Source: Rubripirellula lacrimiformis
GTDB lineage: Bacteria > Planctomycetota > Planctomycetia > Pirellulales > Pirellulaceae
Direction: 5' to 3'
Assembly (NCBI RefSeq): GCF_007741535.1
Contig: NZ_CP036525.1
Location: forward strand, 3,968,001 to 4,032,000
DNA length: 64,000 nucleotides
In this document: positions 19,481 to 25,751 of the stretch, piece after piece
How positions within the stretch are numbered: the first letter of the stretch is position 1
Layout of the letters: the number at the start of each line of letters is the position of its first letter
The notes under the pieces: model-generated
Seen by the model: the letters and a program-made list of their open reading frames with translations, nothing else
Told to the model about the DNA's origin: nothing
The model's database searches: none
Translations under genes and position numbers: made by a program

Positions 19481-20503
19481 TCAGTTCTGCGGGATCAGAT
19501 CGACAGAGAAGGTCGAATCGGATGCAGTTGGAAGGAACGCCGAATATTGCTGGCGGCGGGCGCGTTTGGCGTTCCCGCCGGGGTACCATTGGATGCCAAG
19601 CATTGCGTCGACTGTCCCCGTGTCGGCTGGGAAAATCAGGTTCGTTTCGCCATAGATGGCGAACGATTCATTCAGCGGGCAAAGAATGTCGGCGCCGATC
19701 ACCATCGATTCGTCAAACGGCGCCTTCGTGCCAACCACGGCGTTGGATTCGCTGTGCCCGTCCGCGATGCCCATCCATAGGGTTCCCTGGACACCGGTAT
19801 CGAAGGTTCTTCGAATGTAGGCGCTGACTTGATCAACGGTTTGCAAACGGACATTCGATCCATTGAAAGTTGCGTCGTCACCCGTACTTCGCGCTCGCCC
19901 GGTCACGCCCATTTCGGTCAGGGGCGTCAGTCGATAGCCGATGCGGGCACGCCATTGTCCCAGGGTGACGGTATCGAAACCATCTTGGTAAAGGAAGTCG
20001 TGGACGATGCCCCAGCCGAGTCGTTCGCCGCGGTGGAAGACGCCCGCGGTTGTATGGTTTTGGATTCGAGTGGTGTCTTCACCGAGCAATTCAAATACTT
20101 GGACCGCATTGTCGCTTGGTTCGAATGCGGTACCGATCTGGTAGCCCAATCCCCACTCGGTGGACAGCGGCGCGGCCCATTCGGCAGCGAAGCGGACGCC
20201 TAGATTTGCGTTGACGCCATAATCTTGAGGCTGTTTCGAACCGTCGATCCCAGAAAACATAGTCAGGTATTCCGACCAGTGGTTCGTGGGCAGATAGTTC
20301 AGCGAACATGGATCGTGTTCTGCGTCGCCGTAGGCCATCACGGATGGTTCAGGCAGTGAAGCGTATCCGTGAACGCCGATGTCCGAGGTACTTTCGATCT
20401 CTGCGTTGAAGTTTTCGGCGCGTGTAGGACGGTCGCCAATGATGATGCACAGTGTGATTAGCGCGATCGCTGCGTTCGCGTTACGAAAGGCGTCAATCAA
20501 CAT
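19481..20503 (-). CDS. Probable outer-membrane beta-barrel protein of unknown function
   Basis: About 340 residues from ATG 20503, which gives a signal peptide (FRNANAAIALITLCIIIGDRPTRA); the frame extends to 20743, overlapping the divergent kinase start. The mature part alternates aromatic and polar residues in beta-strand style (NANLGVRFAAEWAAPLSTEW, GLGYQIGTAFEPSD, GQWRARIGYRLTPLTEMGVTGRA) and ends with a strand-like segment, consistent with an outer-membrane barrel. It resembles the DUF6666-type planctomycete proteins, tentatively. ATGs at 20563 and 20545 are alternative starts with no better ribosome site. It is divergent from the kinase and convergent with the fucose permease. Its role is not known. 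Confidence 0.55.
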   Translation of the reverse strand: MLIDAFRNANAAIALITLCIIIGDRPTRAENFNAEIESTSDIGVHGYASLPEPSVMAYGDAEHDPCSLNYLPTNHWSEYLTMFSGIDGSKQPQDYGVNANLGVRFAAEWAAPLSTEWGLGYQIGTAFEPSDNAVQVFELLGEDTTRIQNHTTAGVFHRGERLGWGIVHDFLYQDGFDTVTLGQWRARIGYRLTPLTEMGVTGRARSTGDDATFNGSNVRLQTVDQVSAYIRRTFDTGVQGTLWMGIADGHSESNAVVGTKAPFDESMVIGADILCPLNESFAIYGETNLIFPADTGTVDAMLGIQWYPGGNAKRARRQQYSAFLPTASDSTFSVDLIPQN

Positions 20504-20730: not shown

Positions 20731-23700
20731 ATGGAATTGTCACTGATGATTGGTGCTCCTAAGAACGAAGACACTTTTGCCCAACCCATCGAGCTGCTTG
20801 GTTTGGTCGGGCGAGATCACGTGGATTCGTTCGATCAACCGTCCAGGGCGTCGGTCGATGGACAGGCTGGTTCGATGACCCGAGGGATCGATCAGCTGGA
20901 TTCGCTATCCAACGCTATTGATTCCGAGATCCATTTGTCGTCGAACCCGTCGGGCGACGCCCACATACTCCCGCAGCCCATATCACCATCCACGCGGTGG
21001 CGACTATCGTCGGTTGGCCCAAACGCAACCGCCTATGAGTCGATGGATGCGCCATCCGATCATTCACGAATCCGTATGATTCTTCGGGAAGACGGATGGG
21101 ATGCTCAGCAGATGTCCGATCTGCGCCAGCGTCTGGCTTTGATCCAATTGACACGTTCGCCGTCGATCTTGGCTGTCTCGGCCATTGCAATGACGAGTTC
21201 TCCGCCTAGTTTTGTCATGGACAATCCGGATAGGCGTCCGTGGAAGTCCATCGTTGATCAACTACGATTGGCGGACCAGATATCAATCGCAGGGCAACTG
21301 GTAGCGATGTTTCGCGACGCGCATCGCGTTGGGCTGACGCTGCCTGCGGGACGACTGTTTGATTCAGCGATGATTTCGATCGTGCAGTGCAGTGGAAACG
21401 ATCCCAGGTTGTGCGTTGACTACAGCGGAGTCGACTGTGGCGAGGTTGAGAATCTGGCTAGCAGGGCAGTGGATCAAAGCGATTTATCGAATCAAGATTC
21501 GGTTCAGCGGGATCTATTGGAACTTCGCAATCTGTTGCGGGTGCTTCTGCCACAGGACGACAGAGGTGCTGACGTAACTGATGGCCAGGCTCGTTTGCTA
21601 GGCGGACGGTCGCGCGCAGCGGCTCGCCGGCTGTTGTCGGATTCCGGCGAAGTGCCGGGGTTGGATCAGTGGCTGTCCGTGTTGGACGCGATTGTTCCAG
21701 ATCGCGCCGAGGCGAAGCTTGGCAGCGAAATGTTGCTGTCGCAGGCCGACGACGAAGACTCGGACTCGACCGGCGTATTTCCGATTGCAGAGGTGTCGGA
21801 GCAGCATCCACTGGCTCTGGACAAAACCGTTGATCGGTCGGCACCCGCCGGATTCAACTTGGACGACGAGAATCTTCGGACTGGGGAACTACCGATTCCC
21901 GGTCAACGCCCCGCGGATCCCTTGATCGGTCAATCACTTGGTCGATTCCGAATCGATGCGATCGTCGGCCAGGGTGGCATGGGGACCGTTTACAGCGGCA
22001 TCGACCTGACCAGTGGCGCAATTGTCGCGGTCAAGGTGCTGCGCAACGATCTCCATGATATCGCTCAGGCTATTCGGCGGTTCCGAAAGGAAACTCGCTT
22101 GTTGGCCGACGTACAGAACGATCATGTTGTGAAGTTGCATCATGTCGGAATGGATCAAGGCATGCATTTCATGGCGATGGAGTTCGTTGACGGGATCGAT
22201 CTGAAAACGTGGTCGCAAGGCAGGTTACCGCTGAACGCAGTGGACGCATTGTCGGTCATCGCTGACGTTTCGCGTGCTCTCGTCGAAGCTCATAAAAAAG
22301 AAATCGTTCACCGAGACATCAAGCCCGAGAACGTTTTGATGGGTCGACGCATGCAGGGTGACGATTCACTGGGGAACCTCCGGATCAAACTGACGGATTT
22401 TGGAATCGCACGGCATGTGCAGCAATCTGAGTCGTTGGAAGTCACCAAAGCGGGCACGATGTTGGGCACGCCTCGCTACATGTCGCCAGAACAGTGCCGC
22501 GGTGATGGCGAAATCGGAGTCGAAGCCGACGTTTACGCGCTGGGAGTTTCGCTCTACGAGCTGTTGACGGGGAAAACGCCGTTTCAAGCAGATGATCCGA
22601 TCAAGATGGCCGCCAAGCACTGCTTTGAATCGCCGCCCCCGATCGCACGACGCGACGACGATCTGTCGGATGCTGCGGCTCAGATCGTGATGCGGATGTT
22701 GGCGAAAGAACCGTCCGATCGGTTCGCCAATGCAAGCGAATTGTTGCAAGAGATCGAACGTGTGCTGCGTGGCGAAACCGCAGACTTTCAGGCACATCCG
22801 CAACTGCCCCCTCATGATCCAGCTCGCATTTGGAAAAAGGCAGTCCAGTGGGATTTGGACAGCAGTGTCGATGAAATGTGGCCGCTCGTGTCCAACACCG
22901 AACGATTGAATCGAGCCATTGGTCTGCCTCCGGTTCAGTACGAAACGATCCACGATTCAAAACGGGGACTTCGGAAATTTGGTTCGTTTCGGCTCGGGGG
23001 CGTCCAGATCCGTTGGGAAGAACATCCGTTTGAATGGGTCGAAGGACAGCGGATGGGGGTCTTGAGGGAGTTTTCCAGCGGTCCCTTCAAGTGGTTCATG
23101 AGTATCGTGACGCTAAGTCCCCGTGGTGCCGGTTCGCAGCTCACTCATGAAATTCGCATCGAGTACCGGAATCTCTTTGGACGCGTGCTGACCAAAGTGG
23201 AAGCCGATTGGAAAGGATTTCGACAGCTCGATCGCACGTATCGGCGAATCGACCGATCCGTTCAGCAACACCACCAGTCCAACGTGTTTCAAGACGTCTT
23301 CGAATCGCCCACCCAACTGGATCGAAATGCGATCCGGCGACTCGACCAACGGATCGAAGCGGTGGCGCATGCGGGCGGCGATATCACGGCGCTTGAAAAG
23401 CTCGGTGACTTCATCCGACACGCCCCGCCACAGCCACTGGCCCAGATTCGACCGCGTGCGTTAGCCGATCAGTTGGCCGTTCCCGAAGATCTGATGATCG
23501 ACACCTGCCTTGTGGCGGCATCGCAGGGCTTGTTGTCGCTTCGCTGGGATGTGCTTTGTCCCACCTGCCGTGTATCCGCCTCGACGACAGACATGCTGTC
23601 CCAGATTGGTGCTCACACTCGCTGTGAAGCATGCGATGTGTCGTTTCGATCCAACGTCGCTGAAGTAATCGAACTGGTGTTCCGCCCTCATCCAGACATT

Positions 23701-24651
23701 CGAAGCGTTGACGATCAAGACTACTGCATTGGCGGTCCAGAGCATTCACCCCATGTTGTGGTGCAAGTTCGGATCGAGGCCGGTGAACGAATGGAGCTTC
23801 CGGTGCGTCTATCGCCGGGGGACTATATTCTGCGTTCAGCCCGCTTGCCACGGACACAGTCGATCCGAGTTCAGCATTCCGCGGCACCATCGCATTGCGA
23901 TGTGATTCTATCTCGCGTCGGTGAATCCACAAATATCCCGACCTTGCGTCAGGGGATGCCTACCATTCGGATTGTGAACGATGACACATCACTGCATGTG
24001 GTTCGGATCGAACGCACAGCCTCTCGCACCGATTGTTTGACCGCAGCGGTGGTTTCAACCATGCCTCGCTTTCGTAAACTGTTCCCTGAACAGACGTTTG
24101 ATACAGAAAACCCTGTTACTAGCGAGCATCTGACGTTGTTGGCGACGACGGTTGTCAATATCGAAAGCATCTATGAACAGTTCGGCGAACGTGAGTCATA
24201 TGAGCTGATCAAACGGCAACAGAAGGTCTTAGGCGAAATCGTCGCCCGGAATCGTGGCAGTGTTTGCAAAACGATTGGCGAAAGCTGTTTAGCGGTGTTC
24301 GAATCCTGCGACAACGCGGTGATGGCTGCGATGGAGTTCGATAGGATTGCAAAAAACGACAAACGCTTGGTCGGTCTGGTCATCGGTCAAGGCTTGCATC
24401 GTGGTCGAACTCTAGTCGCCACGGAGAACAGCCGTCTCGACTATGTGGGGTCATCGGTTCGCGCCGTACAGGCGCTGCCGCCCATGTCCGAAGGTGAAAT
24501 TTTGATGACAGAGTCGGTGTTTGCAGACGTTGCGGTCGTCGCTCGGCTAGGAAGCCAGCTCGCTCAATCGACGGTGTCCGAAGTCCGCCTTCCGGGGATT
24601 GCGGATTGTCGCGTCCAATCGATCAATTCGGACCCAGGGAACAAAGAATGA
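20731..24651 (+). CDS. Large Ser/Thr kinase with SRPBCC, DUF5939-like and degenerate cyclase domains
   Basis: 1306 residues. Residues 1-400 are a poorly conserved acidic region. The kinase spans ~404-680, with glycine loop G413QGGMG, K435 in VAVKV, H527-R-D529 and D556-F-G, all intact, so it is probably active. Residues ~700-845 resemble an SRPBCC/START-type ligand-binding fold (WDLDSSVDEMWPLVSNTERL). Residues ~850-1085 look like DUF5939, with a zinc-ribbon-like pair C943PTC946 and C965EAC968. Residues ~1130-1290 resemble a class III nucleotide cyclase (VCKTIGESCLAVF), but the two metal-binding Asp positions read T1140 and E1184, so catalysis is unlikely. The next gene starts inside this gene's stop (ATGA, 24648-24651). 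No membrane helix was seen, unlike many planctomycete kinases. Confidence 0.85.
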   Translation: MELSLMIGAPKNEDTFAQPIELLGLVGRDHVDSFDQPSRASVDGQAGSMTRGIDQLDSLSNAIDSEIHLSSNPSGDAHILPQPISPSTRWRLSSVGPNATAYESMDAPSDHSRIRMILREDGWDAQQMSDLRQRLALIQLTRSPSILAVSAIAMTSSPPSFVMDNPDRRPWKSIVDQLRLADQISIAGQLVAMFRDAHRVGLTLPAGRLFDSAMISIVQCSGNDPRLCVDYSGVDCGEVENLASRAVDQSDLSNQDSVQRDLLELRNLLRVLLPQDDRGADVTDGQARLLGGRSRAAARRLLSDSGEVPGLDQWLSVLDAIVPDRAEAKLGSEMLLSQADDEDSDSTGVFPIAEVSEQHPLALDKTVDRSAPAGFNLDDENLRTGELPIPGQRPADPLIGQSLGRFRIDAIVGQGGMGTVYSGIDLTSGAIVAVKVLRNDLHDIAQAIRRFRKETRLLADVQNDHVVKLHHVGMDQGMHFMAMEFVDGIDLKTWSQGRLPLNAVDALSVIADVSRALVEAHKKEIVHRDIKPENVLMGRRMQGDDSLGNLRIKLTDFGIARHVQQSESLEVTKAGTMLGTPRYMSPEQCRGDGEIGVEADVYALGVSLYELLTGKTPFQADDPIKMAAKHCFESPPPIARRDDDLSDAAAQIVMRMLAKEPSDRFANASELLQEIERVLRGETADFQAHPQLPPHDPARIWKKAVQWDLDSSVDEMWPLVSNTERLNRAIGLPPVQYETIHDSKRGLRKFGSFRLGGVQIRWEEHPFEWVEGQRMGVLREFSSGPFKWFMSIVTLSPRGAGSQLTHEIRIEYRNLFGRVLTKVEADWKGFRQLDRTYRRIDRSVQQHHQSNVFQDVFESPTQLDRNAIRRLDQRIEAVAHAGGDITALEKLGDFIRHAPPQPLAQIRPRALADQLAVPEDLMIDTCLVAASQGLLSLRWDVLCPTCRVSASTTDMLSQIGAHTRCEACDVSFRSNVAEVIELVFRPHPDIRSVDDQDYCIGGPEHSPHVVVQVRIEAGERMELPVRLSPGDYILRSARLPRTQSIRVQHSAAPSHCDVILSRVGESTNIPTLRQGMPTIRIVNDDTSLHVVRIERTASRTDCLTAAVVSTMPRFRKLFPEQTFDTENPVTSEHLTLLATTVVNIESIYEQFGERESYELIKRQQKVLGEIVARNRGSVCKTIGESCLAVFESCDNAVMAAMEFDRIAKNDKRLVGLVIGQGLHRGRTLVATENSRLDYVGSSVRAVQALPPMSEGEILMTESVFADVAVVARLGSQLAQSTVSEVRLPGIADCRVQSINSDPGNKE

Positions 24652-25751
24652 ATTATTTTGATGTGAAGCGAACGAAAGCCTCTTCGGTCTCGAAGTCGAA
24701 TTCGAACTGGATGCTGACAGAGTTCGGAAGTGGACTGCATCAGAGCCGATCGTATCTGATCCCGATGCCGGATTGTATCGTTGGTCGGTCCACTTCCGCA
24801 GGGCTACGGATTTCCGATTCGTCCGTTTCAAAACAGCATGCGCGATTGTTCACCGACGCGGGACAATTGTTTGTCGAAGATCTGGGAAGCACCAACGGAA
24901 CCTACGTCAACAACGAAAAGGTGCAGCATTCCGCCCTGGTCACCGGTGATCTGTTGCAGTTTGCAAACTCGCTCTACAAAGTGTGCGTCGAACAGACCGG
25001 TGGAGACGAAGGAACGATGGAACAGGGGCCCGAGACTTGGGCCGGGACGCTTTTGATGTTCTATCGATTGATGTCCGACCGCGCCGTCAAGCCGTACTTT
25101 CAACCGATCGTTAAACTAGAGAATCTTCAAGTCGACGGGAACGAATTGCTTGCTCGCAGCGATCTGGATGAATTGCGTGACCCCGCATCGATGTTCGGAG
25201 CCGCCGAACGGCTAGGGCAGCAAGCCGCCCTCAGTGAGCTCATGCGTGACGAGGGTTCGCGGGTCGCGTTGGGACACCCGGTCGCCGAAACCCAACTGTA
25301 CTACAACACCCATTCAGCGGAATTTGGCACGGATCGACTGGACAGTTCCCTGCGTGATCTTCGTCAGCGGTACCCGACGCTGCCTCTGACAATCGAGATT
25401 CACGAGGCGGCAATTACCCAGCCGGATGCCATGCGAAAATTGCGTGCCCTGCTAACTAGCTTGGACATGCGGTTGGCCTATGACGATTTTGGGGCCGGTC
25501 AGGGACGATTGGTGGAACTGACTGAAGTTCCAGCCGACGTGTTAAAATTCGACATGCAGTTAATTCGGAACATCGATTCGGCCTCCGCGACGCGTCAAGA
25601 ATTGCTTCGGTCGCTTGTGCGTGTATCGATTGACTCGGGTTCTGTACCACTTGCCGAAGGCGTCGAAACCGAGGCCGAGCACAAGACTTGTATCCAGTTG
25701 GGATTCCAGTTGGGACAAGGCTACTATTACGGTCGGCCGGCACCTATCTAG
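24648..25751 (+). CDS. FHA domain fused to EAL c-di-GMP phosphodiesterase
   Basis: 367 residues. The start ATG overlaps the kinase stop by four bases, indicating translational coupling. Residues ~40-115 are a forkhead-associated domain with G46-R47-S48, S61, H64 and DLGSTNGTYVNNEKV, the residues that bind phosphothreonine. Residues ~145-367 are an EAL domain. The catalytic set seems present: E166 (NELLAR), N220, E250 and E253 (EIHE), D279-D280 (YDDFGAG), K300, E337 (AEGVET) and Q357 (LGQGYYYGRP). It is therefore likely to hydrolyse c-di-GMP. No GGDEF or transmembrane segment is seen. The likely upstream signal is phosphorylation by the neighbouring kinase, read by the FHA domain; that link is inference. 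FHA-EAL fusions are uncommon. Confidence 0.88.
   Translation: MNYFDVKRTKASSVSKSNSNWMLTEFGSGLHQSRSYLIPMPDCIVGRSTSAGLRISDSSVSKQHARLFTDAGQLFVEDLGSTNGTYVNNEKVQHSALVTGDLLQFANSLYKVCVEQTGGDEGTMEQGPETWAGTLLMFYRLMSDRAVKPYFQPIVKLENLQVDGNELLARSDLDELRDPASMFGAAERLGQQAALSELMRDEGSRVALGHPVAETQLYYNTHSAEFGTDRLDSSLRDLRQRYPTLPLTIEIHEAAITQPDAMRKLRALLTSLDMRLAYDDFGAGQGRLVELTEVPADVLKFDMQLIRNIDSASATRQELLRSLVRVSIDSGSVPLAEGVETEAEHKTCIQLGFQLGQGYYYGRPAPI

Follow-up and report, generated by a model that had tools for sequence, protein, structure and literature searches.

The window, meaning the whole 64,000-nucleotide stretch of DNA analyzed here, encodes a multidomain Ser/Thr kinase and, overlapping its stop codon, a protein that joins an FHA domain to an EAL-type c-di-GMP phosphodiesterase domain. 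The two genes are conserved as neighbors across Planctomycetia. They likely constitute a switch by which threonine phosphorylation controls a c-di-GMP phosphodiesterase: autophosphorylation of the kinase linker would recruit the FHA-EAL protein, and phosphorylation of the FHA-EAL residue T123, followed by rebinding of the FHA domain, would change the geometry of the EAL domain. Three findings strengthen such a phosphothreonine circuit: T123 is conserved, the kinase linker has a motif like those of GarA and DgcB, and a second, unrelated kinase family is found beside FHA-EAL genes.

Architecture of the locus and its proteins

The features of the locus, in window positions, are as follows:

19481-20503, minus strand: DUF6666 outer-membrane β-barrel gene, divergent from the kinase gene; likely ATG at 20503, signal peptide followed by a barrel
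20731-24651, plus strand: Ser/Thr kinase gene (ORF of 1306 residues) with the domain order pseudokinase, linker, PknB-like kinase, SRPBCC-like domain, DUF5939/zinc ribbon, degenerate cyclase homology domain
20992-21696, plus strand: N-terminal pseudokinase, residues about 88-322; the window copy lacks catalytic residues of the HRD/DFG type
21763-21780, plus strand: candidate FHA-docking motif D345-S-T347-G-V-F350 (DSTGVF) in the disordered linker that precedes the kinase domain
21910-22785, plus strand: active kinase domain, residues about 394-685, with VAVK, HRDIKPEN, and DFG motifs
22819-23274, plus strand: putative SRPBCC-like domain (helix-grip topology), residues about 697-848, from model topology and a weak profile match
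23374-23715, plus strand: DUF5939, residues 882-995 (Pfam E 4.5e-12)
24115-24555, plus strand: degenerate class III cyclase homology domain (match to the class III cyclase Ma1120, E 2.5e-6)
24648-25751, plus strand: FHA-EAL gene, 367 residues, starting at ATG 24648 in an ATGA overlap with the kinase stop; translationally coupled
24729-24986, plus strand: FHA domain with R47, S61, H64, N83, and G84 conserved (Pfam residues 44-105, E 1.7e-17)
25014-25016, plus strand: T123 in the inter-domain linker of FHA-EAL, candidate phosphosite
25071-25739, plus strand: EAL c-di-GMP phosphodiesterase domain (Pfam residues 142-364, E 5e-33, 114.8 bits)

An upstream TTG at 24606, which would give a 381-residue ORF, was rejected as the start of FHA-EAL, being a mechanical ORF only. 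Promoter and terminator scans at the locus gave no more matches than in shuffled sequences. The window genome consists of one contig of 8.54 Mb. It contains 12 strong GGDEF domains, so that c-di-GMP is probably made in the host. With 78 protein-kinase matches (some being pieces of one protein) and seven EAL matches, heavy Ser/Thr kinase signaling stands beside a c-di-GMP network.

An earlier note, made from the sequence alone, had described a 1306-residue Ser/Thr kinase coupled by an ATGA overlap to an FHA-EAL protein with visible catalytic residues, and had named domain searches as one check; the kinase, FHA, and EAL assignments all hold. The catalytic core of the kinase is matched by Pfam Pkinase at residues 408-673 (E 4e-49). 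In a VIA-align comparison with PknB of Mycobacterium tuberculosis, it superposes with a Z-score of 35 and an rmsd of 1.4 over 258 residues at 38% identity, and a PknB structure solved with the FHA substrate GarA (6i2p) is among its structural matches. Fold, VAxK lysine, HRD aspartate, and DFG aspartate place it among the Hanks-type (PknB-like) Ser/Thr kinases. It falls outside the PASTA kinases (PknB/Stk1 equivalog), as its NCBIfam score of 287.5 lies below the cut-off of 450 and the match is confined to the kinase part. Since the alignment of the 1200-residue kinase model covered the kinase domain only, the pseudokinase and the folds of the C-terminal part were assigned from profiles and topology.

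The N-terminal region, a degenerate kinase that the earlier note had not described, aligns with the family's own active kinase in an hhalign profile-profile comparison at 97.8%, as opposed to 0.1 to 0.3% for three unrelated control profiles. The corresponding parts of three homologues (L137, L138, and L152) exceed the Pfam Pkinase cut-off, and in the AlphaFold model the order of strands and helices is that of kinases. Some members of the kinase family are missing the pseudokinase. It is followed by a linker of residues about 324-392, which is disordered in the model with a pLDDT of about 32-37.

The C-terminal half begins with the region that had been called SRPBCC-like. Its predicted model shows the topology β-α-α-β6-α, and its profile match is full-length but weak (9-23% versus 0.1% for controls); Pfam and PDB sequence searches gave no match for it. 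Its core, WEEHPFEW...REFxxGPFxWF, is conserved. Topology and profile together favor an SRPBCC-like fold, short of proof. The proposed zinc-ribbon/DUF5939-like part is borne out by the Pfam match and by the cysteines C943-x2-C946...C965-x2-C968, all four of which are invariant in 10 homologues and also in a set of 32. As to the cyclase-like part, homology to class III cyclases stands, but the domain is degenerate: the metal-binding aspartate positions are occupied by T and E, and the signature of an active class III cyclase (two metal aspartates, transition-state Asn/Arg) is absent from the window kinase. The idea that the kinase has a second output through cyclase activity was rejected because of the loss of metal aspartate. 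In planctomycetes, Chloroflexi, and Schekmanbacteria, SRPBCC-DUF5939-cyclases that stand alone retain both metal aspartates (6/6), and the first of these is present in all six of them as compared with one of 50 kinase-fused copies. The standalone proteins (L117, L118, L119, L155, L159, and L161, split in L118) keep their catalytic aspartates, and the C-terminal half of the kinase apparently derives from them. The input half of the kinase thus resembles a cyclase system that was captured and now has phosphorylation as its output. Neither this descent nor the loss of aspartate had been part of the earlier note.

The FHA-EAL protein carries an intact set of functional residues in both domains. 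Across 71 non-redundant FHA-EAL proteins, the EAL residues N220, E250, D279, D280, K300, and Q357 and the FHA residues S61, H64, N83, G84, and T85 are present in every one, and the EAL residues E166 and E337 as well as the FHA residue R47 in at least 95%. As judged from its sequence, the window protein holds the residues that mark phosphothreonine-binding FHA domains (GR, SxxH, NG), and the complete set of metal and substrate residues of EAL phosphodiesterases (E, N, E, D, D, K, E, Q) makes it a predicted hydrolase. Its relatives in the PDB are EAL enzymes and, for the FHA domain, GarA, OdhI, TB39.8 (FhaB-type), and the Bdellovibrio FHA-GGDEF protein DgcB. In a sample of 392 genomes of the phylum, full-length matches come nearly all from the window's class and one further family, and the weaker matches are EAL-only.

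The divergently encoded protein, described earlier as outer-membrane-like, is indeed a predicted β-barrel and belongs to DUF6666, a family that had gone unnamed (Pfam E 7e-17, 62.2 bits against a gathering cut-off of 27). Its AF2 model (mean pLDDT 81) consists of a signal-peptide-like helix and a barrel of about 12 strands, with outer-membrane barrels as best Foldseek matches. Besides the window, the gene adjoins the kinase in 31 sampled loci (some of them the same contig counted twice), with or without FHA-EAL. Matches to the protein are bimodal in score, with 28 genomes above 370 bits and the rest below 180. The high-scoring subfamily occurs in every one of the 13 genomes that hold a close kinase versus 15 of 283 others (p 2e-15, with relatedness ignored); it usually lies beside the kinase and is also present in genomes lacking it. 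The barrel is therefore a conserved third component and a nonexclusive partner of the kinase. The window genome encodes a second, canonical DUF6666 protein (G000:C1:5499669-5500559) of a type found about once per genome, scoring 441 bits as compared with 60 bits for the kinase-linked one. Because neither the kinase nor FHA-EAL has a clear membrane segment, their link to the outer-membrane barrel must be indirect.

Conserved neighborhood and candidate phosphothreonine sites

Within 296 genomes of the order, the FHA-EAL protein finds matches in 91 and the SRPBCC-DUF5939 part in 22. The earlier note had suggested looking for the same pair in other planctomycetes, and it is found there: this sample contains 13 close relatives of the kinase (matches over 400 bits), 11 of which directly adjoin an FHA-EAL gene; in one genome (G231), both genes are present but apart. 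In a second collection of 42 named contigs, 18 have the pair, among them those of Rhodopirellula baltica and Neorhodopirellula pilleata. Sequence distances of kinase and FHA-EAL correlate with an r of 0.88. Unpaired kinases and orphan FHA-EALs both occur, so neither gene strictly needs the other in cis.

When 41 FHA-EAL genes were sampled regardless of their neighbors, seven lay beside the window's kinase family and 22 beside a second, unrelated family, in which a kinase is combined with a tubulin-like (Tubulin_2) domain. Together, 29 of 41 stand beside a kinase of either family, for which a rough gene-count model gives a chance of about 1e-30. The window genome has one FHA-EAL locus of each kinase type. 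The Tubulin_2 type is found at 4.24 Mb of this genome (L038:8725-14664) and in L053, L058, L060, and others; herein, kinase and FHA-EAL genes are divergent or co-directional, often with a winged-helix/AAA-like ATPase gene in between, and the co-directional kinases often carry T[EQ]VF motifs.

Two threonines, both newly recognized in this analysis, emerge as candidate phosphosites. In the otherwise variable linker between FHA and EAL, a single column stands out as conserved, T123, which is T in 67 of the 71 non-redundant proteins; among the exceptions, one (L166) is an alignment shift and the others are orphan FHA-EALs. Counted over loci with enough flank, position 123 is T in 50/50 kinase-adjacent and 8/13 orphan copies (p 1.8e-4, from related sequences that are not independent), with one counted orphan having another kinase type 1.7 kb away. 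One locus (L075:7752-11369) has two tandem FHA-EAL genes and no adjoining kinase, and the second gene has Ala at this position. A reading of T123 as a GarA-type motif was rejected, as its flanks (T-hydrophobic-x-often acidic) do not fit; it is retained as a candidate phosphosite only.

The second candidate is T347 in the kinase linker. The motifs of GarA, OdhI, and DgcB have in common hydrophobic residues at -3/+2/+3, an acidic residue at -2, and Ser at +1, and DgcB's phosphopeptide NSDNLEK(p)TSIVASDT is bound by its own FHA domain (PMC6733907). A motif of this kind (acidic -2, small +1, hydrophobic +2/+3) is found in the kinase linker as DSTGVF and elsewhere in the family as LDKTGVI and MDQTGVI, and the context of T123 differs from it. 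With contexts that different, the two threonines are not both equally good FHA ligands. The strict motif [DE]xT[SGC][VI][VIFLM], defined partly post hoc in that G/C at +1 was chosen after the sequences were seen, occurs in 10 of 45 kinase linkers, as compared with a shuffle mean of 0.19 and none of 314 equal windows elsewhere in the proteins. A looser form is present in 14 of 23 paired versus three of 20 unpaired kinases (p 0.004). In the tubulin-type kinases, whose linker follows the kinase domain, T-x-[VI]-[hydrophobic] is found in nine of 20, mostly as T[EQ]VF[DE] (shuffle mean 2.1).

Proposed switch and competing explanations

From these features, we infer the following pathway. A signal would activate the PknB-like kinase, which may be restrained by the pseudokinase and by the input module of SRPBCC-like, DUF5939, and dead cyclase domains. 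The kinase would then phosphorylate T347 of its own linker, T123 of FHA-EAL, or both, upon which the GarA-like FHA domain could dock onto the mark on the kinase and/or fold back onto pT123, within or between subunits. The EAL domain would thereby be repositioned, and c-di-GMP hydrolysis would change in either direction. The DUF6666 barrel may belong to the same pathway as signal source or as regulated output; speculatively, a ligand could enter via the barrel and bind a pocket of the SRPBCC-like domain.

Several points count against such a switch. Besides the unequal contexts of the two threonines, the existence of unpaired kinases and orphan FHA-EALs, and the lack of clear membrane segments, many paired kinases are without the linker motif, T123 could be a helix cap, and other kinases could serve FHA-EAL, given their number in the genome. 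Alternatively, the FHA domain might only tether the phosphodiesterase to the phosphorylated kinase as a local c-di-GMP sink, leaving EAL activity unchanged and T123 as a structural helix N-cap. This fits the position of the GarA/DgcB-like motif, which both kinase families carry on the kinase itself, and the T-x-x-E/D pattern at T123 is similar to a capping box. However, position 123 is T rather than S, D, or N in nearly all copies, the acidic residue at +3 varies (E in 26/71), and T123 is lost in orphan copies only, a pattern not expected of a structural cap; tethering without a switch seems unlikely.

Information could also flow in reverse, with FHA-EAL acting as a c-di-GMP-dependent regulatory subunit whose binding or hydrolysis of c-di-GMP controls a kinase with other substrates. 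Trigger-type EAL proteins control partners in such a manner, and a portable regulatory subunit would be expected beside two different large kinases, as is FHA-EAL. Pure EAL sensors, however, often lose their catalytic residues, whereas these are conserved throughout here, and the retention of T123 in kinase-adjacent copies speaks for FHA-EAL being the substrate, so that this direction of control is rather improbable. The least probable explanation, which we regard as very doubtful, is that the genes are neighbors by shared inheritance or regulation and act separately, the FHA domain reading the marks of other kinases. Orphan FHA-EALs, unpaired kinases, and the many kinases of the genome would agree with this, but FHA-EAL adjoins two different kinase families, the pair is patchy yet co-occurring, and both the linker motif and T123 track pairing.

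The phosphothreonine switch may extend beyond this locus. It is possible, and proposed here tentatively, that FHA-EALs are a portable phosphothreonine-to-c-di-GMP module, recruited to SRPBCC-DUF5939-type and tubulin-like-type kinases, each type having its own, independent docking motifs of the GarA-like T-x-V-hydrophobic form, with phosphorylation of T123 as the switch; for its input, the kinase in the window would then have captured a dead cyclase system and become tied to an outer-membrane barrel. The operon at this locus combines a candidate kinase with a presumably FHA-gated enzyme, and specific residues can be named as candidate phosphosites; for this reason, whether threonine phosphorylation directly controls c-di-GMP is testable with two purified proteins. 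If true, a function would be given to some of the many uncharacterized planctomycete Ser/Thr kinases, and roles to DUF5939 and DUF6666.

Relation to known systems

Searches of the literature, with most subscription journals outside their coverage, found no paper on FHA-EAL, DUF6666, or DUF5939. Those combining c-di-GMP with FHA, EAL, and Planctomycetes, with Hanks-type kinases, or with threonine phosphorylation found none on a kinase/FHA-EAL pair.

The standalone SRPBCC-DUF5939-adenylate/guanylate cyclases (e.g., L117, L155, and L159) have the same domain order as the C-terminal half of the kinase; they keep both metal aspartates, whereas the kinase-fused ones have lost the first. On the side of the switch, the closest parallels are found in phosphothreonine signaling. 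The pairs PknB-GarA of mycobacteria and PknG-OdhI of corynebacteria share with this locus a PknB-like kinase, a GarA-like FHA domain, and T-x-V-hydrophobic motifs. GarA and OdhI, however, have no catalytic domain and bind metabolic enzymes, whereas here the effector enzyme is fused to the FHA domain and the motif lies on the kinase. DgcB of Bdellovibrio bacteriovorus (Bd0742, FHA-GGDEF) combines, as here, a GarA/OdhI-type FHA domain with a c-di-GMP enzyme and a conserved Thr near the FHA domain (PMC6733907). It makes c-di-GMP, in contrast to the predicted degradation by FHA-EAL, and its conserved Thr lies in an N-terminal tail instead of between FHA and EAL. The kinase of DgcB has not been identified, whereas a candidate is encoded in the operon described here. 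A kinase-tail-FHA-GGDEF fusion from Sorangium likewise unites a kinase and an FHA-c-di-GMP enzyme as one unit (PMC6733907), but as a single polypeptide with GGDEF, as opposed to two proteins, an EAL domain, and the additional pseudokinase and SRPBCC/DUF5939/cyclase-like parts. The earlier note had seen in the pair a candidate for a new second-messenger circuit. Our comparison suggests that it is the wiring that is new, with the logic of GarA, OdhI, and DgcB applied to an EAL enzyme so as to connect kinase signaling to c-di-GMP, while the messenger itself is a known one.
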